From Nitrosospira lacus (GTDB lineage: Bacteria > Pseudomonadota > Gammaproteobacteria > Burkholderiales > Nitrosomonadaceae): a stretch of DNA of 64,000 nt. The notes beneath the pieces are model-generated. The model saw only the letters and a list, made by a program, of their open reading frames with translations, had not been told where the DNA came from and made no database searches. The stretch spans positions 3,009,137 to 3,073,136 of the forward strand of contig NZ_CP021106.3 in assembly GCF_000355765.4 (NCBI RefSeq), in the 5' to 3' direction. Made by a program: the position numbers and the translations under genes. This document shows positions 6,661 to 32,896 of the stretch, piece by piece; position 1 is the stretch's first letter, and each line of letters starts with the position of its first letter.

Positions 6661-6742
6661 GATTGCAATAACCATGCTCGGACAACAAAAAACCCGCAAG
6701 CGTTTATCCTTGCGGGCTCTCTGGACTTCTTTGGAATACTTA
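6661..6742. repeat. Left boundary repeat of the older element (att relic)
   Basis: This ~82-bp stretch shares most of its sequence with 12809-12900: GATTGCAATAACCATG, then ACAACAAAAAACCCGCAAG, a terminator hairpin, and CTGGACTTCTTTGGA. The second copy has a ~10-bp insertion. At 12.9 kb the repeat abuts a copy of the tmRNA 3' end, so I infer that both copies derive from the region downstream of ssrA and mark an earlier integration. After 6742 the sequence diverges (AATTGGCGGCG) from the ssrA end. Confidence 0.65.
6693..6716. terminator. Hairpin terminator in left repeat
   Basis: CCCGCAAG / CTTGCGGG stem with an 8-base loop, flanked by an A-run on the left that reads as TTTTTTG on the minus strand. 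It closes the leftward komABC transcript, 224 bp beyond the komC stop, and is homologous to the hairpin at 12847-12878. Confidence 0.65.
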
Positions 6743-6939
6743 TGACATTTAATTGGCGGCGTCAATTGAATAATGCTCTGAAATGCTTATAGATACTAGC
6801 TTATTCTAGTTCGAGTAAATATAGTTACCGTCAAAGTTACCGCCACAGTCAGAAATGTACCAATAGGCTTACCGTCAACATTTGAGTGGGTTGGCTTTTA
6901 CCGGGAGAGTTGACGGGTGTCATCGGCCATCCGCTGAGA

Positions 6940-7737
6940 TCAAGAATTACCAAGTAATTTGGTAAGGAACTCTTCCAACGCTTCAGCTAGGTTATCTTTT
7001 TCCGATGTGATCATCTTTATGCCCCATTCCTTAAAAATCGCCTCCTGTACTACATTCGGCTGGGGATAAAATATGTAAGATCGTGGCCGAACATCTGAAA
7101 GCGAAGTACTTTGCCACATTTTTGACAACTTATAAAAAATAAATCTCAGATTGATATCGGAAAGACTATAGCCAATAAAGAGAACCCCCTTACCAAGCAC
7201 ATCGGATCGTAATTTGATGTCAAGGGGTGTTTCGAACTCTAGCCGTTCAAAATAACTAGTTTGAGTTAAAACGATTGAATTATCGTCATCAAAATCTCCG
7301 TGAAACTTGACAATTTGGGTTTGGTTATCTTTAATTTTAGTTAGGTCGGCAACAGAAGCTATTTTGAGGTAATCTTTTCCATGGCAATCAAAAGCTCGTT
7401 CAAGCCATCTATCATAGTTTGTGGTGTAAATGATAGGAAATTGTAGGGAGCAAATGAGTTGATGAATCTTTGAGTTTTCAATCTTAACGTTGCTAGAATG
7501 CCATTGCTGATCCATCCAACTCCGTAGTGGTCCAACGCTACCTTTTTTGATTCGATAATACTCAGCTAAAGCGTAAAAATCTCCCAATGTTCTGTAAACA
7601 TCAGGATCATAATCAAGTTCTTTTGCAACGTGGTTGATTAAAGTCTCCGAGGATGGAAGGCCTAAGTTCATGGAAACGCCAGCCCCAGCGAACAACATAA
7701 TGTCGCCGTTTTTTATAGCTGCGGCAAGTTTCTCCAT
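6940..7737 (-). CDS. komC: SIR2-like NADase effector, KomC-like
   Basis: A 265-residue SIR2-like protein (SIR2_2 type). Visible motifs are GAGVS (18-22), TTNYD with Asn107, KFHGD with His146, and GYSLSD, the NAD-binding and catalytic set of defence SIR2 proteins. Such proteins hydrolyse NAD+ and stop infected cells. It is the third gene of a leftward operon; its ATG shares one base with the komB stop. There is no deacetylase zinc motif and no extra domain. In the Kongming system KomC pairs with the HAM1-like KomB and is switched on by a deoxynucleotide signal (recalled from the literature). The name is assigned by domain and gene order. Confidence 0.85.
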
Positions 7738-8291
7738 TAAAGACTCCTGAACTTAAGGAATTCAATAAATCCATCAAACGCGATTTTTCGCATGGAAATC
7801 GTATTTTTCCTCTCCCCCATTTCAGCGAACGTTTCCTCAGCGCCTTCAGGGACGAAAACACAATCCCACTGGAAGTCTTGGGATCCTCTCGGTGAGGACG
7901 CGATAGCGCCCTTTATTTCACCTGAAAATAAATAGATTTTTCGACCATCACAGTAGCCAATGACCGTTTTCGCCACCACATCGGTATTGGAGGCATTGCC
8001 AAAAAGTGTTGAAAAGTGAGCTGCCTGCAATTTATCCCAAAAAATTTGCGTTAGACCGCCGGGAAGTCCATTTAATCGGCTTAGATAAAGTCCAGTATGT
8101 TCGACGAAAACAGGTCGTCCAACTAGCAAGAAGGCTTTTAGTAATTTGTCTCGGACAAGCTTATCTACGTTCTCAGTTTGCAGCTCGTCTATCTTATGAT
8201 GAGACCCAATAACTTCGATTCCTGCAGGGGATAGTATTTCCTTAACTTCCTTTACCTTTAACTCATTTCTAGACACAAACCGAACCTTCAT
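7737..8291 (-). CDS. komB: HAM1/ITPA-like nucleotide sensor, KomB-like
   Basis: A 184-residue HAM1-fold protein. [14 protein letters not shown] matches the N-terminal SxNxxK motif; EHTGL (64-68) stands where active enzymes have (E/D)D(T/S)GL; GLPGG and [10 protein letters not shown] match ITPA's GLPG and QDFGWDPCF; and NTISMR replaces NxVSHR. The usual catalytic Asp is therefore His65, and two substrate-pocket residues are changed, which suggests binding rather than hydrolysis of (d)ITP-like nucleotides. The gene overlaps komA by 4 bp (ATGA) and komC by 1 bp. A housekeeping RdgB is unlikely given the operon and the substitutions. Confidence 0.85.
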
Positions 8292-9265
8292 TTTATTAGC
8301 CTCAAGAAGCTGTGTTCTTTTTGCACTGAATACATTGTTTCGAGCAAATCTGGTCTGCCTGATTCTTCAAGAAAAGCTAAGTAGTCTTCACTCATGTTTG
8401 CCTGATGAAGCCCAGGATTGTCTGAGCAGATGACGAAGGGTACATCATGTTGAATGAATTTAACTAAAGGATGGGCTTCGCTAGCGGGAACGGAACCAGT
8501 CATACGGTTGCTAATAGGACAAACCTCAACGCAGATATTGCGATCACGGAGTAGACCCATTGTCTCTTCACTTTTTCCAGCAGCAGTGCCGTGCCCAATT
8601 CTGTCAGCGCCAAACTCTTTTACAGCTCGGTGAATATTTCCTACGTTGCCAGTTTCCCCTGCATGGATAGTTACTCCCAAACCGTGATACTCCTTTGCTC
8701 TCATGAAAAGGCCTGCAAGTTCGGGGGGAGTGTATTCCTCTTCATTTCCGGCTAGGTCTACTCCGATCACCGTCTTAGGCTTTCCCAAGTGCTCGTAGGC
8801 GACTAATAGCGTGCGCAGATTTTCTGCACTGTAATTACCCCGTGACACCGTCATAATTACTCCCGCCCTGATGGAGTATGTCTTAGATGCATTCTCAACT
8901 TCTTCAATAAGCCAACGGAGAGCCTCTGAAACCTTAATTCTATTCAGTAGCGAAATGTAAATTACGCTACTTCTAATTTCTGCAAACGATGTATTTTGGG
9001 CTTGCAACTGGTTGAATGCACTTATTACCATTAATCTAAGACTGTTGCGACTCCTAGGGATCAGGCGTAAAACGTTCCACTCGGCAAGATATTCTTCTAA
9101 ATTAGCGCAAGGAGTATTTCTTCGCAGCGCATTTTCTAGGTCAACAGCGGCTGTTTCCTCAGCCGCCTCTGAGCGCAGCAAATCAATAATGACCGATCTC
9201 TCAACAAGTCCGTTTAGATGAACATGTAGCTCCCCTTTGGGTAGTGTTCGGATTCTGTGAATCAT
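8288..9265 (-). CDS. komA: Adenosine/deoxyadenylate deaminase-like protein, KomA-like
   Basis: A 325-residue amidohydrolase of the adenosine deaminase family. I choose ATG 9265 because a G-run (GGGGGGGG) lies about 7 bases upstream and the family motif ELHVHLNG starts at once; the longer frame to 9352 adds 29 residues that do not look conserved. Zinc/catalytic motifs: HVH (14-16), HAGE (His201), GHGTA and SDNPG (Asp282). Two positions differ from classical ADA: HLHLDG is HVHLNG, and the DD pair before Pro is DN. In Kongming, KomA makes the deaminated purine deoxynucleotide that, after a phage kinase acts, triggers KomBC. First gene of the operon. Confidence 0.85.
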
Positions 9266-9352
9266 TGAAATTCCCCCCCCATGAATCACTATCGATATCA
9301 CAGCTAAAATATCTAGGCATTCCAGATCTCGTAATTTCCTGTTCGGGTCCAT

Positions 9353-9906
9353 ACCGGAGTACCGATCGCTTGAAAGACTTGAATGGCTGGTTTTGAGCTA
9401 TTGTGATAAAACTCTTTTTTAGAGCTTGAAAATCATTGCTTCAAAACGCTCGCCTTATAGGAACAGCTTACAAAACTACCTACGCGTTGAGTTAAATGAA
9501 ATGATTTGACGCACGCATAAATTCTATCTGAAATGATGACGAAAGGGTTTTTTTTTCAACAGCAGAGGTCAAATCGAATAGGTCGAATTGATCCTTCGCG
9601 AATAGCGCAGTTGTATTGCTTTAAGACTTTTGCAACAGGCAGAAATGCGCCAAAACCGGCCCATCAGATCTAAGTTTGAGCCTTAGCCGGCGAGCTAGCC
9701 TGATGCATCGATTAACACTATTTTTAATTATTGCTATGTGTGTTTCTCACCCGTAAATAGCTCTTCGTCATTTTCTATTGATTAGAGCAGCTTGAGCTGT
9801 TAGTGTTCGATTCCATATATCCGTAGCCCCGTGTGATATCAAGGGGGAATCAAATATAGGGCGTTTATGCGTCATTTTTTTGTCTACATTACGTTAGCTT
9901 TAAGAC
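9353..9906. promoter_or_regulatory. Intergenic region between divergent komABC and DUF2971 genes
   Basis: About 550-640 bp, AT-richer than the flanks, with no plausible gene on either strand. It must hold the promoters of both transcription units. I see no clear operator repeat, and no regulator gene lies beside it. Confidence 0.4.
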
Positions 9907-10785
9907 ATGAGCATGCTGTATCACTATACCAGCCAGACCGGTATTATCGGAATTATCCAGAGCCGCAGTATCTGGGCTACTCACGCTATGGCATTAAACG
10001 ATTCAAGTGAGTTCTTTCATAGCTTATCCTTCGCCCGAGAAGTGGCCAACGGCATCTTTGAGGATGATGGCTATCTGAGCGCCTTCGGATGGGCTGTTCA
10101 CCACTCACTAGAGTCGGTTTCCGCTGACGATCTTTACCTGACGTCGTTCAGCGAGAAGCCCGATCTGCTCAGCCAGTGGCGAGGCTACTGCCCTGCAGGT
10201 GCTGGGCTTTGCCTAGGCTTCGATTCCAACGATCTGGAAACTTTCTGTGAGCGTCAAGGTTATAAGCTAGAGAAGTGTATTTACGAACACCAGGATCAGA
10301 TTAAACAGATTCATGACCTTGTTGAGCGCTGCTTGAATAGATTTCCAAAGCCACCCTTGAGCCGCGACGAATACAAAGCCCTCACTTCGAAAGAGCAGGT
10401 CAACTTTGAACTAGACTACCGACTTCGCACCTCGCAAGGCCCTGATAAGCTGGAAGCGGATGCCGCTGTAACATGGCTCTGCGCAGAAATTGCCAAGCTC
10501 GCACCTCAGTTTAAGAACGAGGGATTTCACGAGGAAGCAGAATGGCGAATCATAGCAAAAGAACCGAAGGAACAGGTTAAGTTCCGCGCCAGTTCGTCAT
10601 ATTTAGCGCCGTATGTGGGTTTAGAAATACTCATCAGCGCAGCTAACACCACGCTACGTGAGGTAATCATCGGCCCAAATCCGAACCAGGCCCGCTGTGA
10701 GGCGTCTGTTAAGGCGTTACTGACAACAACTGGTCTCGATGATGTTGAGTTGAGGCGATCATCTCTGCCATACAACAATTGGTGA
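9907..10785 (+). CDS. DUF2971 domain protein
   Basis: A 292-residue protein with the DUF2971 signature: LYHYTS at residues 4-9, SRSIWATHAMALNDSSEF, LTSFSEKPDLLSQWRGYC and LCLGFDSN, and near the end HEEAEWRII. The H-Y-T ... S ... W-R-Y ... E pattern resembles ADP-ribosyltransferase-like folds; I put this forward only as inference, since the family is formally of unknown function. It reads away from komA and is followed 37 bp later by the 5'-nucleotidase gene, so the two likely form one transcript. DUF2971 genes are often cargo of mobile elements. Confidence 0.8.
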   Translation: MSMLYHYTSQTGIIGIIQSRSIWATHAMALNDSSEFFHSLSFAREVANGIFEDDGYLSAFGWAVHHSLESVSADDLYLTSFSEKPDLLSQWRGYCPAGAGLCLGFDSNDLETFCERQGYKLEKCIYEHQDQIKQIHDLVERCLNRFPKPPLSRDEYKALTSKEQVNFELDYRLRTSQGPDKLEADAAVTWLCAEIAKLAPQFKNEGFHEEAEWRIIAKEPKEQVKFRASSSYLAPYVGLEILISAANTTLREVIIGPNPNQARCEASVKALLTTTGLDDVELRRSSLPYNNW

Positions 10786-10822
10786 TCAATCAAGTAAAGC
10801 TGGAACTAACGGTTAAATTTGT

Positions 10823-11779
10823 ATGGCATACCCTATTGAAAGGAAGCTCGTAGTCGGCATTGCGTCAAGTGCACTGTTTGATCTGTCGGAGTCGCATAAG
10901 ATATACGAAACCGAGGGTATTAACGACTACCGCATTCACCAAGAGAAGAACATTGATAACCCATTCCCCAAGGGCGTTGCATTCCCATTTATTCGACGCT
11001 TTCTGAGCATCAACAAGGCGTTTCCAAAACAATCCCCGGTAGAGGTCGTGCTACTCTCGCGAAATTCGCCTGAAACAGGATTAAGGGTGTTTCGATCAAT
11101 TAAGCATTACGGCCTTGATGTGACACGTGCAGCGTTCATGACCGGGCGCTCGCCCCATGAATACCTGCCTGCGTTCAATGCATCTCTATTCTTAAGCGCC
11201 AATGAAGATGATGTTAGAGAAGCCATAGATACAAATTATCCAGCTGGGGTGGTCCTCCCTTCGAAAGTTTACGACGATGAGCTTGATACTGAGTTACGCG
11301 TTGCATTCGACTTTGATGGTGTTATCGCCGACGATGAAGCTGAGTCTGTGTATAAAAAGAACAATGATCTGATCGAATTTCAAGCGCACGAATCCAAAAG
11401 GCAATCCATTCCACATCAGCCAGGACCACTTGCTGATTTGTTTAAAAAGCTATCCTTCATGCAGAAATTAGAAGAAAAACAGCTCGGGGAAGATCCCTCG
11501 TACAAGAAAATAGTACGGATTGCGATCGTAACTGCACGTAATGCTCCGTCCCATGAACGGGTTGTCACTACTTTGAAAACTTGGGGTGTCTCTGCCGATG
11601 AGTCATTCTTTTTGGGGGGGATGGAAAAGTCTCGAATTCTGACTATCCTAAAGCCTCATATGTTTTTTGATGATCAGCGCAGCCATTTGCAGTCTCCTGC
11701 CGGTGACATTCCAATGGTTCATATTCCTTTTGGGATAGCAAACAACAAGCTCACATCTCATTCAACTGCGTCTGAGTGA
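10823..11779 (+). CDS. 5'-nucleotidase, cytosolic cN-I type
   Basis: A 318-residue protein of the bacterial/cN-I 5'-nucleotidase family (Pfam '5'-nucleotidase' type). Motifs: KLVVGIASSALFDL near the N-terminus, LLSRNSPETGLRVF, then AFDFDGVIADDEAE with the HAD nucleophile-type DxDGV, VTARNAP, and LGGMEKSRIL...MFFDDQ. These enzymes remove the 5' phosphate from nucleoside monophosphates including IMP and dNMPs. Immediate neighbours are the DUF2971 gene and, divergently, an operon that would use deaminated deoxynucleotides, so a link through nucleotide pools is possible but unproven. Confidence 0.85.
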   Translation: MAYPIERKLVVGIASSALFDLSESHKIYETEGINDYRIHQEKNIDNPFPKGVAFPFIRRFLSINKAFPKQSPVEVVLLSRNSPETGLRVFRSIKHYGLDVTRAAFMTGRSPHEYLPAFNASLFLSANEDDVREAIDTNYPAGVVLPSKVYDDELDTELRVAFDFDGVIADDEAESVYKKNNDLIEFQAHESKRQSIPHQPGPLADLFKKLSFMQKLEEKQLGEDPSYKKIVRIAIVTARNAPSHERVVTTLKTWGVSADESFFLGGMEKSRILTILKPHMFFDDQRSHLQSPAGDIPMVHIPFGIANNKLTSHSTASE

Positions 11780-11959
11780 ATTGCCGAACAGATTTCTTGA
11801 AACGTTGAATATCGCTTCTGAAGAGCTCAACTATCTGGTGCGCGTCGGGAGCAGACCATCGAGACCGGTAATTGCGGGCAAATATAAGTTTTCTCGGGAT
11901 TTTGCATTTGTTATGTCGTAGGGGCTGGGATCTGACGTCGGACAGCGGGGGGCGCCTAT

Positions 11960-12420
11960 ACTTTAACCGTAACAGCGGTAACAATTCGCATAAGACACGG
12001 GCAACGCCCAATTCATAGGGTATTCCGCGTTACCGCAAAATGGTACCGGTTCGAATATATCGGGTAACGGCGGTAACGGTCTCTGGCTTAAGGCGAGTTA
12101 CTACGCGAAATTGGAGCAAGGGGCGGCTTGTTTAGCGCTGGTACCGGTACGATAATGGAAGCAAGATACATTAAACGCCTCCCTGTAACGGTAACGGTTA
12201 CAGTTACAATTACAGTAACAGCGGCGTGATGCATCCCTGTAACGGTAACAGTGCCGGAATGCGTCAAGATTCTCTGTAACGGTAACAGGAACAGATGCAG
12301 TAGAAATTGCCGTAACGCTATGACGTGTTACCAGCGGGCATAGCGCGGTAACATCGGCGTTACACGAAGAACTAAACCCATATTGAATGTTACCGCGTTA
12401 CCGCTGTTACATCGGTAATC
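11960..12420. repeat. Dense GTAAC/GTTAC motif array, iteron-like
   Basis: I count about 22 GTAAC or GTTAC pentamers in roughly 460 bp, against about one expected by chance. They are often doubled as GGTAACGG or GTAACGGTAAC. CTGTAACGGTAAC recurs at 12183, 12237 and 12274; GTTACCGCGTTACC lies near 12389. The array starts at the 3' end of a primase/helicase remnant, which suggests a relic replication origin with initiator-binding sites. A few similar motifs lie at the other end of this element (6640-6880). No plausible gene overlaps it. Confidence 0.7.
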
Positions 12421-12424
12421 GCGC

Positions 12425-12738
12425 TTACTCTCCCTCATTCCCGTACCGGATAACATAGACTCTGGATGATGAACTTAATCCAGGGAGTCGTGCAACCTGC
12501 GAAGGTTTGCCGTCATTGCCAGGAAGCAGCAATCCCGCTTTTATCAAGACGTTCTTAACATCTTTTCGTCAAACCCTTGGCAGACCTCCTGGCGGAATGT
12601 TTCCGGCAATACCAGAAACTCTCGCCCCTCATTTACCCCATTCCGGTAGAAGCCTGCCCGTTTAAGGATACGCTGGTCGATTGTGGCGCTGATATCTTCA
12701 AAACGACTTGCGCCATGCGTCTCGAAAAAACCCCGCAT
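12425..12738 (-). pseudogene. C-terminal remnant of a P4-type (DUF927-like) primase/helicase, frameshifted
   Basis: On the minus strand 12738 to about 12552 translates as FFETHGASRFEDI...EFLVLPETFRQEVCQGFDEK, the familiar C-terminal part of DUF927-type replication proteins of integrated elements. After a +1 shift near 12560 the reading continues as NVLIKAGLLLPGNDGKP...RVYVIRYGNEGE and a stop at 12425, which completes that domain. The rest of the gene is gone: the 5' side runs directly into the boundary repeat at 12.8 kb. It marks the former replication module of the older element. Confidence 0.65.
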
Positions 12739-12808
12739 GAGGTAGGGGGTCAGGTCTTGCTATTTGCCATAATCCGCCGGTCGGTATCATGACGGTAACT
12801 TATCGTCG

Positions 12809-12900
12809 GATTGCAATAACCATGTTTGGACGTAATTGGACAACAAAAAACCCGCAAGCTTTTATTCATGCGGGTTTTCTGGACTTCTTTGGACTACTTA
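12809..12900. repeat. Right boundary repeat of the older element
   Basis: Partner of 6661-6742, with the same order: GATTGCAATAACCATG, A-run, hairpin, CTGGACTTCTTTGGA. It lies directly next to the partial tmRNA end at 12912, so it probably represents the original sequence downstream of ssrA including its terminator. Confidence 0.65.
12847..12878 (-). terminator. Hairpin terminator, probably the ancestral tmRNA terminator
   Basis: A 10-bp stem AAAACCCGCA / TGCGGGTTTT with a 12-base loop; T-runs lie on both sides, so it can work in either direction. Its place just downstream of the tmRNA-end copy suggests it once terminated ssrA. Confidence 0.7.
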
Positions 12901-12911
12901 GGGCACTTCAT

Positions 12912-12943
12912 TGGTGGAGGCGGCGGGAATCGAACCCGCGTCC
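12912..12943. repeat. att site: 32-bp copy of the tmRNA 3' end
   Basis: Thirty-two bases identical to 32535-32566, the last 32 nt of the ssrA gene including CCA. After 12943 the sequence departs from ssrA. With an integrase gene beside the intact ssrA, this is the distal attachment site of the 19.6 kb element. AATACCCCC at 13001 and 13013 may be arm-type integrase sites. Confidence 0.88.
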
Positions 12944-14002
12944 TACACAACCTTATCGATGCTTGATATTAGACAAATACTATCTGGTTCGATTCCTGTT
13001 AATACCCCCAATAATACCCCCTGCGTGATTGGATGACGTTGGAACTTGAACCGCTCATGAGCAATGAATTTATCCGAGCAGACTTAGAAATGGCGATAGC
13101 AGTTCCTGACTGTGAAGGCCGAAATTGCACGACAGTCTGCAGCTGACCGAGCTTGATACTTTGTTGCCCATCGTCACTGCATCGAGGTCAACGACTGCTA
13201 TCGAGAAACACGAATTTCCTTTCCCGACACAACTGAGACCTTCAGCGCATGCGCTCCGCCAGTTCGTTGTGCGAAAGCGATCGAGGCAGTTGATAAAGGC
13301 TTTGCGCGCTCCCCGATGTGTTTACCAAACCCGCCGCACTACTTTCGAAGAGTTCAACGCGACCATTATTGAATATATCGGCACTGACCAGAACTGATGA
13401 GTAAGTCAAGGATTCCACACGATAATCCTCGGTGCGATGCTGCTGTCTGACTGAGATATTTGTGAGCATTAAGCTGCTCGCATCAAGGCCATGCATCAAG
13501 CAATCTATGAAGGCTTGGACGCTGGAAGCCTGAATCTGACCATGTGTTGAACAAGTGGGAAGGAACTCCGATCAGACCGTCCACATGCGGCCAGTAGGCT
13601 CGTGAGAAGAGTGACGAATAGAATTCTGAGCCTAATATTTATTTCCGTTGCTTACATAGCATTATTTTCCGTTTCAAAATACCTAATAAAAACTCTGTGA
13701 CCATTTGATTTACTGGTTCCGGAGCGAAATCGCAAATAGTGTCAGATAATGGATTCCGGTGGTGTGGATAAAAGTTACTGCAAATGTTGCTGCATTTTCC
13801 GTTCGCTTGTCCTATGAGTGCTTGGACCCGCGAGCAGCTTACCAAACTTTCAGAACTCACCTAAGCCGGTTCTCCCTTCCCGGTCTTCGGGGAGCCCCTC
13901 GGGGCAGCGTCAGCCTAACTCCTGTCCGAAGCACATTGACATTGTGGCCAATAGCGTCAACACGCTAACAGGTTTGGCCAGAGTTGCGAGGTTAAGTCTG
14001 CT
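12944..14002. other. Gene-poor left end of the ssrA element
   Basis: No convincing gene. Short frames (13125-13397 plus, 13639-13860 minus) have no family features. The region probably contains decayed cargo. Confidence 0.4.
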
Positions 14003-14893
14003 TTACTTACCCTGGTTGATGAAATCACTGGCCCGCTTGCCCACAGTGGTCGGCAATAATAACTCGCTTATTCCACAAAGAGTCCCGACGAGAAACGCGA
14101 GCATGGGACTCGTTGAGAAATCCGTTAGCGAATGATTGCCCAAGCTGATCTGAACCACGCCAAGCATGAACATGATTCCGAGAATCATCGTAAGACTCCC
14201 AGCAAACAGTAGCCGAATTACAGGCAGCAGGCGGTCGCTGTCAGTTACGGTCAAGTCCGTAAGCGTAAAAACGGAAGTTCGAATTCCATAAGAAAGCCAA
14301 ACGCCGATAAAACAGCCAACCCACAGCAACATGAAGTTCGCGAAAATAACCCGCTCTATGCCAAACGAGAGGAGAAGATTCGCGAGCCCGTCATTCGGCG
14401 GTGTGATCCGCATTACCAAGTAAAGCAGGATAAACGGGAGAGCAAGAACTATTGCTGTCCCACCTAACCGTACCAAGTGGCCATTCTTGACTCGACTAGC
14501 TTCGTCGTCAATTAGATTTGCCGAAACCGTAGCCAAAGCGCTTTTGGAAATTTCAGGCGACGCGTCGGGCCCTTCCAAGCCCAATTGTGCAAGGCGGAAG
14601 AGGCGCATGTAATAGCTGCGAAATTGCGACTTGCAGCGCTCCACGGAACCTGCGACTGGATGACCGTAGATTAGCTGCACAGTCCGCAAGACTTTTTCTA
14701 TATCCTGCTGTAATTCGAGCTGATCTTTTGGGGGGGGCTGAGGAACGGTATTCACCACACCAAAATAGATATCCGTCGCCTTTTCATCCATTGGATTGGG
14801 CGACTCAACCGGCTGGCCCGTTGGTGGGGTCGGATTTCCCAAGGGTTCACCGGCTGCAGTAGCAGGCCATATTTTGTAGGAGCCCTGTGACAT
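14003..14893 (-). CDS. Membrane protein of unknown function, four TM segments
   Basis: A 296-residue protein. Residues 1-140 are hydrophilic, with a Pro-rich start (NPTPPTGQPVESPNP) and an alpha-helical part; four hydrophobic segments follow (GGTAIVLALPFILLYLVM; the region around FANFMLLWVGCFIGVWL; LLFAGSLTMILGIMFMLGV; MLAFLVGTLCGISELLL). No family recognised. It starts 27 bp after the Lys/Ala-repeat gene on the same strand, so the two likely form an operon. Confidence 0.65.
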   Translation of the reverse strand: MSQGSYKIWPATAAGEPLGNPTPPTGQPVESPNPMDEKATDIYFGVVNTVPQPPPKDQLELQQDIEKVLRTVQLIYGHPVAGSVERCKSQFRSYYMRLFRLAQLGLEGPDASPEISKSALATVSANLIDDEASRVKNGHLVRLGGTAIVLALPFILLYLVMRITPPNDGLANLLLSFGIERVIFANFMLLWVGCFIGVWLSYGIRTSVFTLTDLTVTDSDRLLPVIRLLFAGSLTMILGIMFMLGVVQISLGNHSLTDFSTSPMLAFLVGTLCGISELLLPTTVGKRASDFINQGK

Positions 14894-14920
14894 CGGTTAC
14901 ACCTATGATCCTTGAATGTA

Positions 14921-15241
14921 CTACAACGCGGACCTTGGTGGCCACTTGCCAACAATCTTCACACCACCGTCTTTCCTTGCTGCTGGCTTCTTCGCAGTGT
15001 CTTTTTTTGCTGCTGGCTTCTTCGCAGTGTCTTTTTTTGCTGCTGGCTTCTTCGCAGCGTCTTTTTTTGCTGCTGGCTTCTTCGCAGCGTCTTTTTTTGC
15101 TGCTGGCTTCTTCGCAGTGTCTTTCTTTGCTGCTGGCTTCTTCGCAGTGTCTTTTTTTGCTGCTGGCTTCTTCGCAGTGTCTTTCTTTGCTGCTGGCGTG
15201 GTAGCGGCTTTCTTTACTGCTGGCTTCTTTGATGTTGGCAT
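14921..15241 (-). CDS. Lys/Ala-rich tandem-repeat protein, histone H1-like
   Basis: A 106-residue protein starting MPTSKKPAVKKAATTPA at ATG 15241, preceded by AAGGGGA at about 6 bases. The body consists of seven or eight 10-residue repeats AAKKDTAKKP, with AAKKDAAKKP in two, encoded by 30-bp tandem repeats; the C-terminus is GGVKIVGKWPPRSAL. Such AAKKP arrays are typical of bacterial H1-like or AlgP-like DNA-binding tails. All frames are open through the array because the repeat length is a multiple of three; this frame is chosen by ribosome site and composition. Copy number is likely to vary. Confidence 0.7.
   Translation of the reverse strand: MPTSKKPAVKKAATTPAAKKDTAKKPAAKKDTAKKPAAKKDTAKKPAAKKDAAKKPAAKKDAAKKPAAKKDTAKKPAAKKDTAKKPAARKDGGVKIVGKWPPRSAL
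14972..15200. repeat. 30-bp tandem repeat inside the Lys/Ala-rich gene
   Basis: The unit (for example TTTGCTGCTGGCTTCTTCGC followed by AGTGTCTTTT) is repeated about 7.5 times with point changes that alternate Thr and Ala codons. It is a likely site of slippage. Confidence 0.85.
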
Positions 15242-15463
15242 ACAAGTCCCCTTGGTCAAATGGTTAAGGTGATGTAAAGCCCCAACAGTTTATTGCAGGG
15301 CGCTTGCATCCAGATATTTTTATAGCGCTGCCACGCATGATGCCATTGTGTATTGTTAATGTGCAATCGTTTTATTGCCCGTCATCCTTGCATCATCGCC
15401 AATAATACTGACAGGTGAAAGGCAGCTATTGGCACATTTCTGCCGGATGGAGCCCGTTCCAAT

Positions 15464-16100
15464 TATGCCGAGATAGAAAGGATGGCAATATTGCCACTGT
15501 AAAAAAACATCAAAATACATCCTTCCCCTTGAGAAGCGGGATAAGCCGAAACTTAGCAATATCCCACTCGGCAGATATTGCCTGCAGCGGTTGCATTCAG
15601 CGCGTTCGAGGGACGAACGGATGAGTACAGTTGGTGGAAGCAAGAATCTAATGGGTTTAGCGCTCATGATATTCAGCTGATGTTTACGAATGGCAGTTCT
15701 CCCAAAAAACTCGGAGCCTCTCCCTTACTGTCGACGTATACCCGGGCATGACGTCTGTCTATATGGAAAGAAAGTAAAGAGGTTTCCTACAGCCTTCGAA
15801 CAGGGAAAACCAATGATTCATTCGAAGCCACATCGGTCCGAATCAATGCAGAACGATATGCATATATACCTGTCACTTAAACCAGGGATGTACACGATAT
15901 ATAAAGTATAAGTCATGCGAAATACCAATTATCAACAGCCCAGCTACCCCGCCCATTGGACCGCTATAAATATCGAACGTCACTGTAAAGTAAGATACGT
16001 TTTAGCAGCAACGAAAAACGATGGCGATGCATGAAGTTAAAAAACTAGTTATCCTGGATAAACAAATAAATAGCCATGGGGCAATGGTTTGATAATGACC
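15464..16100. repeat. Imperfect direct repeat, copy 1, flanking the PIN/ASCH/kinase module
   Basis: About 637 bp that align with 19054-19629 over nearly the whole length with scattered substitutions and small indels; one ~50-bp insertion follows the palindrome TGGCAATATTGCCA. Weaker similarity continues to about 16385, where ACGTTTCTGTCTGTAGCGAA matches the tail of the pseudogene near 19989. No intact gene in this copy; the frame that is open in copy 2 is shifted here. Confidence 0.8.
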
Positions 16101-16444
16101 AAATCCGACAATTGGTGGAACGGGCAGTAGTAGCCGGTATTTATACTGAAGTTCGACTTCAAGAGAAATAACCGGCGCAAAGCCCATATTCAAGCCGAAC
16201 CGCAATACCGCTGTAACGGGGGAAAATAGAATGGAACTTAAACAAAATAGCGCTCGTTTTGATAGTGAATGGTTTCGAATCGCGGACTCGAAAGAGCGAT
16301 TGACAAGGAAAGGGAACTTTACACGCGTCAACAGACGATCTGAAGGGCTCCACCCAACACGTTTCTGTCTGTAGCGAAAGCCGCAAATCAATCAACCCTC
16401 AGCAAATATTCGCGATAAGCTTCGCAAGCTGGGAGGACCTCCTC

Positions 16445-16978
16445 CTATATCCATTCGCTTATAATCGCTTGTTTCATCCCATCGGTATCAAAGGCTTGGA
16501 GCACAACCAACGGCACGGAAAGCACAGCAGCGACATGTTTGGCATGGGCGATCTCGGCCTCTTGGTGAGCCTGGAGCAGTCCAACGGATGGTAATACACC
16601 ATCGCGCAGTTGCATTCTTTTTGCGATTTTACTGGGGGCATCTGTGTAAGTTACGATGCCTTCGATACGAAGTTGCCGAAAAATATCAACGGGAACAGCC
16701 TGAATGCCCCCGTCCGATTCGCGCTGAATTGTAAAGTGGCCGTCTAACAGAAAGCGCCCACCTTTGATGAGCTTGGAAACACCTTGGATTAATAGTCGCT
16801 GGTTTTCATCAATGTCCGCGACCAGCTTGGATTGCTCCACAACAGCAGAGGCTTTCTCGCCTTTAATAATTTGGCTAGCAGTGTAATAAGGAATGCCAAG
16901 TTCCTCAGCGACTGCCATACACCCAGTAGTTTTACCGACTCCGTGAATACCGGCCACGAAAATAACTTTCATTCTCAC
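16445..16978 (-). CDS. P-loop NTPase, nucleoside/adenylate-kinase-like
   Basis: A 177-residue protein with the Walker A motif GIHGVGKTT at residues 10-18, a likely Walker B/lid region GGRFLLDGHFTIQ, and an ending like small kinases. Ribosyl- or nucleotide-kinase activity is plausible; no specific substrate is readable. It starts 5 bp after the ASCH gene and is the last of three leftward genes (PIN-GNAT, ASCH, P-loop). The operon sits between two large direct repeats inside a mobile element. Confidence 0.7.
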   Translation of the reverse strand: MRMKVIFVAGIHGVGKTTGCMAVAEELGIPYYTASQIIKGEKASAVVEQSKLVADIDENQRLLIQGVSKLIKGGRFLLDGHFTIQRESDGGIQAVPVDIFRQLRIEGIVTYTDAPSKIAKRMQLRDGVLPSVGLLQAHQEAEIAHAKHVAAVLSVPLVVLQAFDTDGMKQAIISEWI

Positions 16979-16983
16979 CCTTT

Positions 16984-17427
16984 CTAAAGTTTTTCGAGAA
17001 TCTGGCTGTACTCTTTAGCATCAAGGTATCTGAATGACTGGGGCGCACGAAAATCCTTGAACATTTCCTTTGGGTCAATGGCCTGCTGAAACTCTGCGAC
17101 ATCCGAAATCTCTATCGCGAAACCCGTTTTTTTTCCAGTGAAATAGTCACGAATAAGCTGGCGAGGCACTCCGCCGCCCTTCTCCTGAGACAGATTCCAT
17201 AAAGCGGTGGGCGATCCCTCAGTAACGCCCACCACCTTGGCCGTTGCCACAATTCTCTGCACCGGGGAAGACGAATAGATCACCAATACATCAACCGACT
17301 CGGTAGCCCAGCTTCTCCTAAACTCCAGTTTTTTTTCTCGGGACAATATCTTTTCAACAAAACATGGCCGGATAGAAATTAGAGCTACTTTAGGAGGCTT
17401 CGGAAACAAGTCGTTCGAATGCGTCAT
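16984..17427 (-). CDS. ASCH (PUA-like) domain protein
   Basis: About 147 residues from ATG 17427. The longer frame from 17460 would overlap the upstream gene by 71 bp; from 17427 the overlap is 38 bp and no clear ribosome site is seen, so the start is uncertain. ALISIRPCFVEKILSREKKLEFRR is the characteristic first strand-helix of ASCH domains, followed by VDVLVIYSSSPVQRIVATAKVVGV. ASCH/PUA-like domains bind RNA or modified bases. Its neighbour carries a second PUA-like domain. Confidence 0.75.
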   Translation of the reverse strand: MTHSNDLFPKPPKVALISIRPCFVEKILSREKKLEFRRSWATESVDVLVIYSSSPVQRIVATAKVVGVTEGSPTALWNLSQEKGGGVPRQLIRDYFTGKKTGFAIEISDVAEFQQAIDPKEMFKDFRAPQSFRYLDAKEYSQILEKL

Positions 17428-18865
17428 CATCAATTTCACGGATGGTTTGGATATTGCCATTTACTATTCGATTCCTGTTAAGCCACTCACCGGATGGAGG
17501 GCAAGAAAAATGTTTTATGAGACGAAAGAGCATCACCTTTATTGGCTTGGCCGCCATAGCCGTAATCTGATCCATACTGTACACCGTTCTCCGACGTACC
17601 CGATCTACTATCTCATTGACATCCTGAAGAGTGATGTACTCCTCTACGATGCCAAGACTGGTTACTGCGCGCTCATCGGTTGAGCGATAAAAAAGCACTA
17701 CGTCTCCAGGATTCATTTGTCCTAATTGGGCACGGCATAAATAGGCCTGTTTTATCGCATTGCTTGCTGTGTGTGGTGAATCGAATAAAGCCATTTGGGG
17801 TGGTTCGGCTGAAGAGATATAGTCGGAGAATAAAATTCTATGGTATTCAGGCCGGATCGGAATGATAAATTTCCTGATGCTTCTATCATGACAAAAATGT
17901 GGGAAATAATTTCGAAAATACTCAAACGCCGGCAAGTCAGTTAATGAATTATCCGGTGGCGAGATTGGATGCCGCTTCACGTACACCACATCATCATCAT
18001 AGCGGCCAAACTCGGAGAACCCAAAATCAGCCAATAATTCAAAGAGGATGTTCTGTTTGTCCGGATTGCCGTGAATATATATATTCTCAAGTCGATTCTC
18101 GGTTGCATAACGGAATGCTGCCTTCAGAAACAGCTCGCCTATTTTCCTGCCACGGCAGCTGGGCGCCACTTTAAAGGTACACAGCTTCAACAAGGCACCG
18201 AATAAAATATCTCCCTGACCAGTCGCATCATCATTTTCCTTACGAGCATAAATACACAATGCACCCAGTTTATTTGAATCAATCCAATACACCCAAGCTC
18301 TACGATCATTCCTGGCGCAGCTTCGGAACCATGTATCAAATTCCGGATACTCTTCTCGCAAACTATCGAAAAACTCATCATTCAGTAGCCGTGTCAATGA
18401 ATGCAGCGGGACATCTTGAATGTTCGGCAGATGAACCGAAGTCGGCTCATGCAAGCGACGTAAAAAATCTTCTGCCGCTTTAATCGCATAAACCCGATCA
18501 CCCAAACCACGGCTCACGGCATTTTTATGTATCCCCTTGTCTTCCGTAACTAAATAATGTGCCGCATCACAATACAGTGCATAAAGAATGGCATTGTCCG
18601 CAGCGTCATGAGAATCCGTTGCAGATGAATTCCACGGGCAGTCTGGAATGCTGTCGAGGCGAGAATATTGTTCCAACCGTGCTCGCGTTCGTGCGCCACG
18701 ATTAGCATTTTGATCATGAGTGAGGTCATCTTCCGAGGCGGGATGAACAACGAGTGGATGACCATATGCCTGTGCCAAACGCACAAAATTCGCCAGCCCC
18801 TCTGGTAGCGGTACATGCGAATCCTCAAGCGGGATTAAGATGTTGGTATCGAGCAGGAAGCGCAT
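17390..18865 (-). CDS. Three-domain protein: PIN nuclease - GNAT acetyltransferase - PUA-like (ASCH/EVE)
   Basis: A 491-residue protein. Residues 1-140 are a PIN-like domain: MRFLLDTNILIPLED at the start, DAADNAILYAL and LVTEDKGIH supply the acidic metal-binding residues. Residues about 160-300 are a GNAT domain with the acetyl-CoA loop APSCRGRKIGELFLKAA and GNPDKQNILFELLADFGF. Residues about 330-490 look like an ASCH/EVE-type PUA fold (FIIPIRPEYHRILF, MNPGDVVLFYRS). PIN domains cut RNA and GNAT toxins can acetylate aminoacyl-tRNA, so this reads as an RNA-directed effector. First gene of a three-gene operon; its last 38 bp overlap the ASCH gene. Confidence 0.75.
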   Translation of the reverse strand: MRFLLDTNILIPLEDSHVPLPEGLANFVRLAQAYGHPLVVHPASEDDLTHDQNANRGARTRARLEQYSRLDSIPDCPWNSSATDSHDAADNAILYALYCDAAHYLVTEDKGIHKNAVSRGLGDRVYAIKAAEDFLRRLHEPTSVHLPNIQDVPLHSLTRLLNDEFFDSLREEYPEFDTWFRSCARNDRRAWVYWIDSNKLGALCIYARKENDDATGQGDILFGALLKLCTFKVAPSCRGRKIGELFLKAAFRYATENRLENIYIHGNPDKQNILFELLADFGFSEFGRYDDDVVYVKRHPISPPDNSLTDLPAFEYFRNYFPHFCHDRSIRKFIIPIRPEYHRILFSDYISSAEPPQMALFDSPHTASNAIKQAYLCRAQLGQMNPGDVVLFYRSTDERAVTSLGIVEEYITLQDVNEIVDRVRRRTVYSMDQITAMAAKPIKVMLFRLIKHFSCPPSGEWLNRNRIVNGNIQTIREIDDDAFERLVSEAS

Positions 18866-19978
18866 TTAATTCAAGAAAAGAAATGGGGACGGAATCCCAT
18901 TATTGCTATCTACCGCACTTTAGAATCTTTCCTCGGTAGATTTAATTTCTAAGTGCAACTTCCAGTGTGGATACGGGATGGCACATTGGCTATGAGAATA
19001 ATACCTCAAACAACGTTCTGAAGCGAAATACGGAATTTCAGCTTTTGCCCGGGTGTATGCCGAGATGAAAAGGGTGGCAATATTGCCACGCCACTCGGCA
19101 GGTATTGCCTGCAACGGTTGCATTCAGGGCGTTCGAGAGACGAACGGATGAGTACAGTTGGTGGAAGCAAGAATCTAATGGGCTTGGCGCTCATGATATT
19201 CAGCTGAGGTCCACGAATGGCAGTTCTCCCCAAAAAGTTGGAGCCTCCCTTACTGTCGACGTATACGCGGGCATGACGTCTATAAGGAAAGAAAGTAAAG
19301 AGGTTTCCTGCACTCTTCGAGCAGGGAAAACCAATGATTCATTCGAAGCCGCATTGGTCCTTATCCCGAATCAATGCAGAATGTTATGCATATATACCTG
19401 TTACTTAAACCAGGGATGTACACGGTATATAAAGTATAAGTCCTGCGGAATACCAAATATCAACAGCCCAGCTACCCGCACATTGGACCGCCATGAATAT
19501 TTAACGTCACCGTAAAGTACGATACGTTTTAGTAGTGACGAAAAGCGATGGCGGTGCATGAAGTTAAAAAAGCCAGTTATCCCGGATAAACAAATACCTA
19601 GCCGTGAAGCAATGGTTTGATAATGACCCATGCGATAAATGCTGGAACGATAAATAGGAGTTAGTAGTTATAGTGAGAATTGGATATCGAGAAATGGCCG
19701 AGCCAAATCTCATATTCAAGCTGAACCACAATATCGCGTGAACGGGGAATGAACTATAACTGGCGTTAAACTAAAATGGGGCGTTTCATCGAGCTGTGAA
19801 TGGTCCGAATTGAGAACTGGAAAGAGCAAGTGGCAATATTGCCAGTAACGAAAAACACGGACACCTGTCAGTCCACGCCAGAGAGCCGTTGTAAAATTTA
19901 TTGAGTATTTTGGGCTTGATCGGATAGGTATTGTCAGAGCCTCTAATTCCAGAACCAGTCAGGTTCCAGGTCCGATAG
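18866..19978. other. Non-coding stretch with direct repeat copy 2
   Basis: No intact gene of known family. A plus frame 19105-19515 (136 codons; begins with ATVAFRAF, contains DEYSWWKQESNG) spans most of repeat copy 2 and is disrupted in copy 1. It may be an orphan gene fossil. The palindrome TGGCAATATTGCCA occurs near 19073. Confidence 0.4.
19054..19629. repeat. Imperfect direct repeat, copy 2
   Basis: Partner of 15464-16100. Both share long identical runs such as GGTGGAAGCAAGAATCTAAT and AGAAAGTAAAGAGGTTTCCT. Between the copies lie only the three cargo genes and short flanks. Confidence 0.8.
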
Positions 19979-20488
19979 TCAGGTCGCATACGTTTCTGCC
20001 TGTGGCGAAGGTCGCAGAACGACATGCCTCCAGGTCGCGGCAGGATCAAGATCGGCATTCCGCTGGTCCTTGGCGATTTCCTCCGGCGTCGCGGTCGACA
20101 GGTCGAGTAGGTCCGCATGCTCGCCGTACAGGCCACGCTAAAAGGGTGCCGCCGAAGAAATAACCATCTTCGGACAGTTCACAGCGCTTTTCAGTCCCTC
20201 GTTGATCTTCGCCCCTTCAGCCAGCAATACCCGCCGCTTGCGCCAGATGATCGCTACGAGTTCTTCGATCAGATGCCGCTCGATTATGCCTGTAAGCCGG
20301 TGTTCCTCGATCAGCGCCGCCAGCAGGTCGGCAAACTCACGCGCATCCTCATGGGCCAATACTACCAGTCGGTAAAGAATGCCGTGCTTCATGGCGTTGA
20401 AGCGTACGGTTTCATAACCTCCCTGCGGCGCAACTTGGTCATCAGTTGCTGGGAATGGAATCACGGAATTGTTTTCAAGTGTTTGCAT
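19979..20488 (-). pseudogene. Integrated-element protein interrupted by an in-frame amber codon
   Basis: From ATG 20488 (MQTLENNSVIPFPA) the frame runs through RFNAMKHGILYRLVVLAHED and RKRRVLLAEGAKINEGLKSA to SAAPF, then a TAG at 20138-20140. The same frame continues without a shift as RGLYGEHADLLDLSTATPEE and ends at 19979. Proteins of this type in other elements read straight through this position, as far as I recall, so a sense codon has probably become a stop; the C-terminus is also shortened. Function unknown. It overlaps the upstream TubC-like gene by 14 bp. Confidence 0.65.
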
Positions 20489-20855
20489 ATTTACCCCCTG
20501 TATGTTTTTCAATGAGTTCCAGCAGTGCCAAGCCGTCATAATATTTGCGAGGAATTTCCAGCTCGAATGTGGAGATACCCCTTATACCCACGGCGACAAT
20601 AACCGGGTCAATGGATGCGTTGTCAACCAGGATGGAATAATGTCTGTCCGGCGAGGCATTCAGCATGGCAAGTAACTCGGCGCGTTTCCGTTCCCAACGC
20701 AACTTGATCAGGATGCCGGGTTTGTTTTCGCGAATGACCGGAAGCCACTGGGCAATCACGTCGGCATCACCGGAATAGTGCAACTGGCCCTCAGCCGTGA
20801 GGTCAAGGCGAACCCCTTCAAGGACGGCTGATTCGATAATCTCCGCCGCGATCAC
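20475..20855 (-). CDS. Small element-borne protein with TubC-docking-like N-terminus
   Basis: A 126-residue protein. Residues 1-55 (AAEIIESAVLEGVRLDLTAE, then NKPGILIKLRW) resemble the TubC N-terminal docking fold often annotated in replication modules of integrative elements. The remainder has no recognised family. It follows the primase/helicase on the same strand after a 73-bp gap, the usual place for this gene in such elements. Confidence 0.65.
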   Translation of the reverse strand: MIAAEIIESAVLEGVRLDLTAEGQLHYSGDADVIAQWLPVIRENKPGILIKLRWERKRAELLAMLNASPDRHYSILVDNASIDPVIVAVGIRGISTFELEIPRKYYDGLALLELIEKHTGGKYANT

Positions 20856-20928
20856 AGCACGCCTTCCACAATCTTCGTCATGTGTGTGACAGTTTTCGCA
20901 ACGGGGGTGGCGAAAGGCGGTAAAGGTG

Positions 20929-23433: not shown

Positions 23434-23437
23434 CCCC

Positions 23438-23680
23438 TCAAACCAAAGCTTTGCGGGCGGCTTCCAGCTTCACCACCAAGGCGCGGATTTCTTCGTCGGT
23501 TTTCCCGGCAATGCGCGCCGTGTTTATCGCCGCCACATCACCGGACGGCCATCCTACTGCCCGTGCACCAAGGCTCACCGGCTTTGTCCATAGCCCTTGA
23601 GCAATGCGAAGATAGATGGTGGAGCGGGAAAGCCCGGATTCAGATTGAACGGCAGGAAGCCGATAGATGGTTTGCAGCAT
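23438..23680 (-). CDS. alpA: AlpA-family excisionase/regulator
   Basis: An 80-residue helix-turn-helix protein (frame extends to 23710; ATG 23680 gives the conserved start MLQTIYRLPAVQSESGLS). SRSTIYLRIAQGLWTKPVSL is the MerR/AlpA-type recognition region, followed by RAVGWPSGDVAAI. AlpA proteins activate integrase expression or act in excision of P4-like elements. Directly upstream of the primase/helicase gene. Confidence 0.88.
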   Translation of the reverse strand: MLQTIYRLPAVQSESGLSRSTIYLRIAQGLWTKPVSLGARAVGWPSGDVAAINTARIAGKTDEEIRALVVKLEAARKALV

Positions 23681-23792
23681 GTTTGCACTCCTTCGAGCGT
23701 TATTGAACATGCCGCCATTGGGAACTAGCTAGGGTACTGTCTCGCAACCTATCTGGTTCATCGCGATGAAAAGCCTTATCAATACTTGGGTT

Positions 23793-24746
23793 TCAACTTT
23801 TCGAGCTAGTCTGTCTTTTTGAAGAGAGTAAGCCCCCCCACGACGAACTATCCGTGGAAACCTCTTCAATAATTTGTTTCAACCTCGATATTGAAATCTT
23901 CTCTTCCAGCGCTACAGTGCGAAGGAATGCTTTGGTTCCTTTTGTTTTCTCTTCCAAAACTCGCTTCTTGAGTCTTTCGCGGCGTTGAGCAGGTGTTTCC
24001 GAGCTTGCCGGTGCGCCTTTTATCGACTGCTCGAATTCCCTCAGTGCTTCAGTTCGGACAACCAACACGCTATCTTCCGGCAAGCCGCTCGCCGGGCAGT
24101 AGTTTTCCGATGCGGACCGCGAGTTCCTCCTTTTGAGAAACTTCGCTCGCTTTTCTTTGTGTTCGTTCAACAGCTTTTCCGCCTCGGATTTTTCTATATT
24201 TTCTCTCGCTATCTTCGCTTTCAGCTGCTCCAGCTCCGCACGCGATCCACGACAAAATTTGTTATCCTCGAAATCAACTTGAAGCTGGCAGACAACCCCG
24301 TATTTCCCTTCAACAAAGGCGCCTTCCAAACCTCCATGGGTTATAGCTGGCCCACCGGTTAGATTCTGGTAGTTATGTTCAATGTCTAGCCGCTCGTTAC
24401 CGATCATGGGTAGGTCAAAAACATCCGCAAGCGTGACGACTTCATCCCAGAGCTCAAGCACGTGGCTCGCCTCCCCGCCAGATAACAAGGTTGGTCCCGC
24501 ATACAATCGAACCGTACCTGTGCCATTAGGCGACGGAATCTCTTCGTATTTCGCCTCTTCAATTGGAACCATATTTCCACACAGGGCTTTCGCGTGATTC
24601 GCGAAATAGACAGACAACCGCAACCGGCCATCAAGCGCGAAGCGCAGTACATGAGCTTCTGTCACTTCCTCATCGAATACGATTGCTAGATGCCGAGCCG
24701 CGTCTGGTACTGTTAACCATTCTTTCAATTTTAAGAGTTTACTCAC
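23793..24746 (-). CDS. Element-associated protein of unknown function
   Basis: A 317-residue protein beginning LKLKEWLTVPDAARHLAIVF, a pattern shared by hypothetical proteins next to AlpA/primase modules. Residues about 170-215 form a highly charged, probably coiled-coil stretch (LEQLKAKIARENIEKSEAEK), and the C-terminus holds a basic helix-turn-helix-like segment (ISRLKQIIEEV). It may bind DNA. It sits upstream of alpA on the same strand with a 112-bp gap. No confident family. Confidence 0.65.
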   Translation of the reverse strand: MSKLLKLKEWLTVPDAARHLAIVFDEEVTEAHVLRFALDGRLRLSVYFANHAKALCGNMVPIEEAKYEEIPSPNGTGTVRLYAGPTLLSGGEASHVLELWDEVVTLADVFDLPMIGNERLDIEHNYQNLTGGPAITHGGLEGAFVEGKYGVVCQLQVDFEDNKFCRGSRAELEQLKAKIARENIEKSEAEKLLNEHKEKRAKFLKRRNSRSASENYCPASGLPEDSVLVVRTEALREFEQSIKGAPASSETPAQRRERLKKRVLEEKTKGTKAFLRTVALEEKISISRLKQIIEEVSTDSSSWGGLLSSKRQTSSKS

Positions 24747-31076: not shown

Positions 31077-31119
31077 CTGCCGGCCCATCAAGCCACTTGC
31101 TTGCTTGCGTAGCAAACCA

Positions 31120-32373: not shown

Positions 32374-32490
32374 ACAATATCTCCCGGTTCAATTTGGAGC
32401 GATACCCCCTTCGCTACCCCCATTATGCCCGGATGTTATCAGATTGCGCAAGACGTAAATGGACGATGACTGTCCCTATTTACAAAGAAA

Positions 32491-32513
32491 AACGCCGTCT
32501 CTAGGACGGCGTT
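32491..32513 (-). terminator. Terminator downstream of tmRNA
   Basis: A 9-bp stem AACGCCGTC / GACGGCGTT with a 5-base loop; on the minus strand it is followed by TTTTTC. It lies 22 bp beyond the tmRNA 3' end, on the element side of the attachment core, so it was probably brought in by the element. Confidence 0.8.
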
Positions 32514-32534
32514 GAATCTTACTGGGGGTATTGA

Positions 32535-32566
32535 TGGTGGAGGCGGCGGGAATCGAACCCGCGTCC
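32535..32566. repeat. att site within the tmRNA 3' end
   Basis: Thirty-two bases identical to 12912-12943; comprises the acceptor-stem 3' strand with CCA and the T-arm of tmRNA. Confidence 0.88.
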
Positions 32567-32896
32567 GCAAGTCCTCTACAGACAGTTCTACATACTTAGC
32601 CATGTTATTTAATTTAACCTGGCATCCGCCAACCGGCGGGCTGATGACAGGCGAGTCACCTATTGTTTAACGCTCTGTAAAGTAACCCTGCGGAGCGCGA
32701 TCCTCGTTAATGGCTCCGCTGTCTGTTGCCAGACCCGGCGTTGAGGCCCACCGGTGCGGAGTCCAGCCGGATTTAAGCGGCTAGAGCGTAACGTTCGTCG
32801 TTTGCGACTATACTTTTCCAGATGTATTTACGAGGTAACTGGTCCTCGGTATGCCCTGCGCTGCTTTGCAACCCACGTCGAAGCCAGGTCGCCCCC
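32535..32896 (-). ncRNA. ssrA: tmRNA (one-piece), tag peptide ANDERYALAA
   Basis: The 5' end GGGGGCGACCTGGCTTCGAC at 32896 pairs with CGCCTCC before ACCA at 32535, giving a 7-bp acceptor stem with one G-U. The T-loop GGGTTCGATTCCCGCC is present. The tag reading frame, 32805 to 32773, reads GCA AAC GAC GAA CGT TAC GCT CTA GCC GCT TAA, that is ANDERYALAA. It rescues stalled ribosomes with SmpB. Its 3' end is the insertion site of the element to the left, and the gene remains complete. Confidence 0.95.

Follow-up and report, generated by a model that had tools for sequence, protein, structure and literature searches.

The window analysed here, 64,000 nucleotides of Nitrosospira lacus contig NZ_CP021106.3, carries an intact Kongming (KomABC) defence operon and, diverging from it, a gene of the DUF2971 family followed by a gene for a cN-I type 5'-nucleotidase. 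All five genes lie in a 6 kb segment flanked by two copies of the end of the transfer-messenger RNA (tmRNA) gene ssrA, and cN-I genes recur directly beside komB and komC (komBC) in other lineages. We tentatively propose that the segment is defence cargo in which the DUF2971 gene is independent and cN-I acts as a brake on Kom through removal of deoxyadenosine monophosphate (dAMP) or deoxyinosine monophosphate (dIMP), a reading to which we give somewhat less than an even chance.

Gene identities and arrangement

The genes of the segment, in window coordinates, are the following.

6940..7737, minus strand: komC, SIR2-type NADase (PF13289; match to KomC in PDB, 8zsf, at 3.3e-118)
7737..8291, minus strand: komB, HAM1-like (PF01725; match to KomB in PDB, 8zsg, at 2.6e-79)
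8288..9352, minus strand: komA, adenosine-deaminase-like (PF00962, 163.6 bits)
9907..10785, plus strand: DUF2971 gene (PF11185, 51.4 bits with a cut-off of 22, residues 90-215; predicted DarT/Tpt1-like ADP-ribosyltransferase fold)
10823..11779, plus strand: cN-I type 5'-nucleotidase gene (PF06189, 424.5 bits with a cut-off of 28.2, residues 1-307)

The genes komC, komB and komA (6940-9352) are adjacent on one strand in the usual order of Kongming operons, match the solved KomB and KomC proteins, and have intact catalytic motifs. KomA, which is related to the KomA proteins of an E. coli-type locus (L100) and of a Vibrio locus (L103), retains LHVHLN, HAGE, GHGT and SDNP, while KomC has the catalytic His146 to which PDB entry 9xvc, 'KomC(H146N)', refers. 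The open reading frame (ORF) of komA starts at 9352, 554 bp from the divergently oriented DUF2971 gene; its translation start may lie further downstream. The DUF2971 ORF (292 amino acids) and the cN-I ORF (318 amino acids) are separated by a gap of 37 bp, a spacing from which a single transcript appears likely. In a promoter and terminator scan, promoter-like sites were fewer than in shuffled sequences and none was usefully placed. The original prediction, made from the letters of the window, had described a two-gene unit of DUF2971 and nucleotidase diverging from komA; Pfam and PDB matches confirm both ORFs, their families and the Kongming neighbour, and the interpretation attached to this observation is partly supported, as discussed below.

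The cN-I protein gives a full-length PF06189 match above the curated cut-off and contains the stretches DFDGV (position 163), TARNAP (237), GGMEKSR (265) and FFDDQ (281), which we take to be HAD-type motifs. Its gene is the sole PF06189 gene of the N. lacus genome. The AlphaFold model of cN-I, calculated from the single sequence, was unusable (predicted local distance difference test score, pLDDT, 33.7), and no statement on the fold of cN-I rests on it. Both extra families are already known as defence candidates in PADLOC, where cN-I corresponds nearly over its full length to PDC-S08 (461 bits) and DUF2971 partially to PDC-S31 (31.4 bits); there, each stands as a single-gene candidate by itself, without a tie to Kom. 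Compared with Kongming as described, the segment therefore has two additional divergent genes, one of which, cN-I, recurs beside komBC elsewhere. A nucleotidase partner of Kongming is not mentioned in the available parts of PMC12948488 and PMC12774641.

Recurrence of cN-I beside komB and komC

A KomC-like protein occurs in 12 of 398 genomes of the phylum and 6 of 399 genomes of the order when the threshold is E <= 1e-20, and in 1 of 369 genomes of the class when it is E <= 1e-50; each count includes the genome of N. lacus. Among the 16 KomC-like genomes other than that of the window, komB lies beside komC in seven (weakly in G217), and of these seven only G494 has a PF06189 gene, which is placed directly beside komC. 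For profile searches, in which stretches of about 4 to 21 kb were examined, a set of 16 other kom loci was assembled from the genome hits, from plasmid and viral hits and from the Alcanivorax locus L068. The set includes members that are not independent of each other: L100-L102 are copies, synteny connects L104, L108 and L109, and L220 consists of fragments.

A cN-I gene is present in three of the 16 loci. In Alcanivorax (L068) the gene order is cN-I, komB, komC; on the Zymomonas plasmid pZMOB01 (L084) cN-I adjoins komC-komB and komA is present; in G494 (L125, 8480-10929) komB, komC and cN-I follow each other on the same strand, with no KomA homologue in 20 kb. Two small ORFs of unknown function at 11516-12492 adjoin the latter three genes. 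Ten of the 16 loci have no KomA homologue (L104, L106-L110, L116, L220, L068 and L125). Among the genes up to 5 kb away in 14 komBC loci, that of the window included, two families other than kom recur across unrelated loci, cN-I (four loci) and a chemotaxis-receptor family; cN-I is found in none of nine SIR2-only loci, which have a KomC-like protein without KomB. Because L068 came from the cN-I search, it was left out when lineages were counted from the Kom side; of 11 such lineages two (L084 and L125) have cN-I, compared with about 0.007 expected at random (P 2e-5) and 0.07 expected under a ten-fold enrichment in islands (P 2e-3), where the expectation used a PF06189 prevalence of 24% and an assumed genome of 4.2 Mb. 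The pairing of cN-I with komBC, observed in few loci, is suggestive. The idea that cN-I accompanies Kom beyond chance thus holds for adjacency and fails at the level of whole genomes, where PF06189 is found in one of the seven komB- and komC-bearing genomes other than that of the window versus 48 of 200 Pseudomonadota genomes. Of the roles first put forward, tuning of the nucleotide signal is accordingly plausible for cN-I only.

In the opposite direction, 92 cN-I loci were collected, 80 from genome contigs and 12 from plasmids. We discarded the view that cN-I marks a conserved housekeeping locus, as its neighbours vary across the 80 loci and synteny is local (Duganella, Marinobacter, some Pseudomonas). 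A Paenarthrobacter plasmid locus (L227, 5001-7872), in which cN-I is overlapped by a 192-amino-acid protein without Pfam match and faces a convergent SIR2-type gene, was rejected as Kom-like: it has no KomB or KomC profile match, and its SIR2 protein matches PF13289 only. The scan of viral contigs kept no cN-I; three phage records match it.

The four kom-linked cN-I genes do not form one clade. Their distribution takes three changes on the tree, and none of 200 bootstrap trees allows a single change; numbers as low as three did arise in 21 of 500 shuffles of the labels, and a single gain with two losses could in principle account for the three changes. The Zymomonas gene is sister to that of G494 (100/97), and the gene of the window groups with Methylococcales (88% identity). 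In the family of G494, KomC occurs in one of 10 genomes and full-length PF06189 likewise in one of 10, in both cases G494, with a 68-residue fragment in G413. Since both are confined to this genome within the family, komBC and cN-I appear, as far as gene content can tell, to have been acquired together.

Proposed role of cN-I

According to the available parts of PMC12948488, KomA together with a phage deoxynucleoside monophosphate kinase and the host nucleoside diphosphate kinase makes deoxyinosine triphosphate (dITP) from phage-derived dAMP; dITP binds KomB, which activates KomC (the accessible text of PMC12774641 agrees), and phages escape through Dmp enzymes that deplete dAMP. Because dITP derives from dAMP, hydrolysis of dAMP or dIMP by a nucleotidase would lower the signal in the manner of Dmp. 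We hypothesize that cN-I acts on the nucleotide pool read by Kom and would hydrolyse dAMP, dIMP or both, so that little dITP would form until the phage kinase raises the flux. The enzyme would then restrain Kom toxicity, as a brake or by setting a threshold. The chemistry proposed for cN-I is that of Dmp, the removal of the dAMP that feeds dITP (PMC12948488, in the parts available); Dmp is phage-encoded, whereas cN-I is encoded beside kom on a host element, and the likeness is drawn from this presumed chemistry and not from sequence. For cN-I we infer the substrate, the direction and timing of its action and, indeed, any effect on Kom at all. Human cN-IA prefers AMP and has a low Km for pyrimidine deoxynucleotides, IMP being a substrate of cN-II (available text of PMC10383617), and other bacterial nucleotidases accept dAMP and IMP (available text of PMC8475336).

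Several observations weigh against the proposed brake. Within the stretches examined, cN-I is absent from 13 of the 16 other kom loci. Only two of the 92 cN-I loci (L068 and L084) contain komBC, many cN-I genes adjoin housekeeping genes, and the genome counts given above show no enrichment of PF06189 with komBC. If cN-I were clustered fifty-fold in defence islands, two of 11 lineages would be unremarkable (P 0.05). A chemotaxis-receptor family is found near komBC in four of the 14 loci as well, three of them syntenic. Of the four linked loci, two have a damaged partner: the Zymomonas cN-I has an in-frame stop while the kom genes are open, and the Alcanivorax komB is split over two frames while cN-I is open. 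A brake on the output of KomA cannot fully explain G494 and L068, since these loci have no KomA homologue. Finally, no solved PF06189 homologue was found by phmmer.

The DUF2971 protein

The second gene of the divergent unit encodes a DUF2971 protein that matches PF11185 above the curated cut-off and has the residues conserved in the family. In an alignment of 49 DUF2971 proteins H6-Y7-T8, N31-D32, E35, Q90-W91-R92, Y94, Y126, K203, E210, E212 and R214 are the most conserved. Its AlphaFold model has a mean pLDDT of 93.7. When the model was aligned by VIA-align, the closest structures were DarT 7yk3_A (Z 9.9, 3.5 Å, 146 residues) and Tpt1 7yw4 (Z 9.3); ranks 1-19 were all DarT or Tpt1/KptA (Z 9.9 to 6.9), and ranks 20-25, going by their titles, comprised toxins, an effector, a PltAB entry and PARP16, all of them proteins with the ADP-ribosyltransferase fold. 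Foldseek returned nothing at E <= 0.001, the best match being DarT at 6e-3, and BFVD gave no match at the same threshold. While the fold of the model is like that of DarT and Tpt1/KptA, the sequence differs: when its profile was compared with four DarT proteins, the alignment covered just 15 columns at the N terminus (probability 62), with an H-x-T-type stretch, and DUF2971 has its own motifs NDxxE, SQWRxY and ExEWR. Membership of the DarT family itself was rejected, as hmmscan gave PF11185 only (E <= 0.01) and PF14487 had no match in the N. lacus genome. We read DUF2971 as a family with a predicted ADP-ribosyltransferase fold and a putative activity of that type, in which E212 may be the catalytic glutamate. 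Judged from its fold, the protein probably uses NAD+ to modify nucleic acid or protein.

The DUF2971 profile had no match in the 16 other kom loci, the nine SIR2-only loci or the 92 cN-I loci, and the cN-I, KomA, KomB and KomC profiles had none in 80 viral DUF2971 loci. These counts do not bear out a co-occurrence of DUF2971 with kom or with cN-I beyond chance, nor do they support the two other arrangements that had been suggested, a separate defence pair of DUF2971 and cN-I and a five-gene system. We rejected the recurrent pair, which is absent from the cN-I and viral loci (by profiles, and earlier by phmmer), and, as far as DUF2971 is concerned, the five-gene system, given the other kom loci. 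The pairing of DUF2971 with the rest of the segment looks incidental on present evidence. Because its model matches DarT and Tpt1/KptA and because it lacks linkage to its neighbours, we regard DUF2971 as an independent cargo gene of putative ADP-ribosyltransferase type.

The 80 viral relatives were kept when viral contigs were searched with an alignment of six sequences as query, the best having 46-48% identity; a search of the same kind with the single DUF2971 sequence as query found none. At E <= 1e-15, two of 299 other genomes searched in the order of the window have DUF2971. On the enterobacterial plasmids L130 and L131 (3686-6559) a distant DUF2971 gene is flanked by two unknown genes on one side and by an 'abortive infection family protein' on the other. 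In the literature, the term DUF2971 appears in a Halomonas reannotation paper and is absent from PMC9503650 and PMC13092281; PDC-S08 appears in one paper.

Alternative explanations

The strongest rival is that cN-I is an independent gene, either a nucleotide-depletion defence or a metabolic gene hitchhiking on mobile elements, and that its adjacency to kom reflects clustering in islands; we consider this quite possible. The enzyme would strip phosphate from (deoxy)nucleoside monophosphates and leave the phage short of DNA precursors. Known depletion defences include dCTP deaminase and dGTPase and likewise employ a nucleotide-destroying enzyme as cargo, whereas cN-I would, by its family, act on monophosphates. 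This explanation fits the status of cN-I as a solo candidate (PDC-S08), its presence in the 48 of 200 Pseudomonadota genomes, most of which lack kom, and the loci L007 and L056, in which a type I hsdS gene precedes it. Massilia L008 fits as well: there, cN-I follows dCTP-deaminase-like (PF22769, 56 bits), MazG-like (below cut-off) and FMN-oxidoreductase-like genes on one strand. However, the adjacency to komBC in unrelated lineages is above random, cN-I is absent from the SIR2-only and the viral DUF2971 loci, and in a panel of 100 P. aeruginosa strains PDC-S08 was split 50/50 between resistant and susceptible strains (available text of PMC10855318). The tightly packed L008 run itself (Massilia sp. 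CFBP 13721, 7874-10921), which ends in cN-I and is preceded by a PDC-M62A/B-like pair, resembles an operon for nucleotide-directed defence. A further role, which we deem unlikely, concerns the KomA-less loci: cN-I could be an alternative Kongming component that replaces KomA as the signal-shaping enzyme in loci such as G494 (komB-komC-cN-I) and sets a firing threshold in loci that have KomA. It might produce deoxyadenosine, which a host deaminase and kinase would turn into dIMP and dITP, or it might determine which non-canonical nucleotide is presented to KomB; in that case exchangeable nucleotide enzymes would serve KomBC as a general sensor-effector core.

Some 5'-nucleotidases hydrolyse nicotinamide mononucleotide (NMN), and cN-I could destroy NMN or another NAD+ precursor, which would block the rebuilding of NAD+ after cleavage by KomC, strengthen Kom and oppose reconstitution by the phage. 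Kom works by loss of NAD+, and the phage NAD+-rebuilding pathway NARP1 protects cells from KomABC (PMC12774641, in the parts available), but many cN-I loci have no NADase nearby, and we hold this explanation to be improbable. Even less is to be expected of a toxin-antitoxin-like unit, in which an ADP-ribosyltransferase toxin (DUF2971) would be neutralised by the nucleotidase. Toxins of this type are usually partnered, as in DarTG, and the two genes share a strand and are separated by the short gap; yet the pair is found in none of the cN-I or viral DUF2971 loci, and cN-I belongs to a phosphatase family and is neither a macrodomain nor a NADAR protein. A macrodomain or NADAR partner of the DarTG kind was sought among the listed neighbours only. 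Least probable of all, in our view, is one integrated system of five genes with DUF2971 aiding or countering the Kom response: the genes share a segment between ssrA-end repeats and, by family or fold, would all act on NAD+ or purine nucleotides, but the 16 other kom loci are without DUF2971 and the G+C content varies along the segment (komC 0.39, komB 0.43, komA 0.45, cN-I 0.46, DUF2971 0.50).

The ssrA-bounded segment and its surroundings

The borders of the segment and the related features are as follows (strand is given for ssrA only).

6661..6759: left ssrA 3'-end/terminator repeat (63 bp at 90% to 12838-12900; 16 bp at 100% to 12809-12824)
11929..12735: stretch shared with the ssrA-proximal island of G749, a remnant of the element backbone (to L137 2786-3544, 87% across 156 columns and 77% across 622)
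12792..12943: right ssrA 3' end and downstream flank (87% to G749 7265-7416, directly at the ssrA of G749)
32535..32896, minus strand: intact tmRNA gene ssrA, the integration site (ARAGORN)

The left repeat, which has 80% identity (window 6680-6759) to the downstream flank of ssrA in the same-genus genome G749, has lost most of its ssrA part and looks older, whereas the right repeat closes with a 32-base exact copy (12912-12943) of the 3' end of ssrA. Given this 32-base copy, the intact ssrA and an adjoining integrase ORF (31120-32373), 12944-32534 represents one island; and since ssrA-end repeats lie on both sides of the kom, DUF2971 and cN-I genes, these form a 6 kb segment of their own. The original prediction of a common small element is thus borne out as a segment bounded by the copies at 6661-6759 and 12792-12943, which are ssrA 3'-end repeats as expected of an ssrA-integrated element. 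No integrase-like ORF is among those listed in 6760-12791; the integrase beside ssrA lies in the neighbouring island. G749 has neither a KomC nor a PF06189 match. The CitMHS transporter was uninformative as a synteny anchor, being unmatched in four relatives. The shared backbone contains dense GGTAAC/GTTACC-like repeats at 12020-12420, with further ones near 6640 and 6830, which could be iterons of a P4-like element. The neighbouring ssrA island carries at 16445-18865 the PDC-M11A/B candidate pair (462 and 179 bits) with an AAA-type kinase-like ORF, and at 25192-31076 two long ORFs that, by eye, resemble type III modification and restriction subunits.

Implications

If cN-I is an accessory of Kom, a damaged-nucleotide immune pathway would carry its own phosphatase brake, based on the same reaction that phages use against Kom. 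Such a brake would explain how self-toxicity is avoided, and the komBC loci without KomA, 10 of the 16, would become directly testable. DUF2971 is a domain family without assigned function that phages often carry, as the 80 viral loci illustrate, and the reading as a putative DarT/Tpt1-like ADP-ribosyltransferase provides an activity that can be tested.

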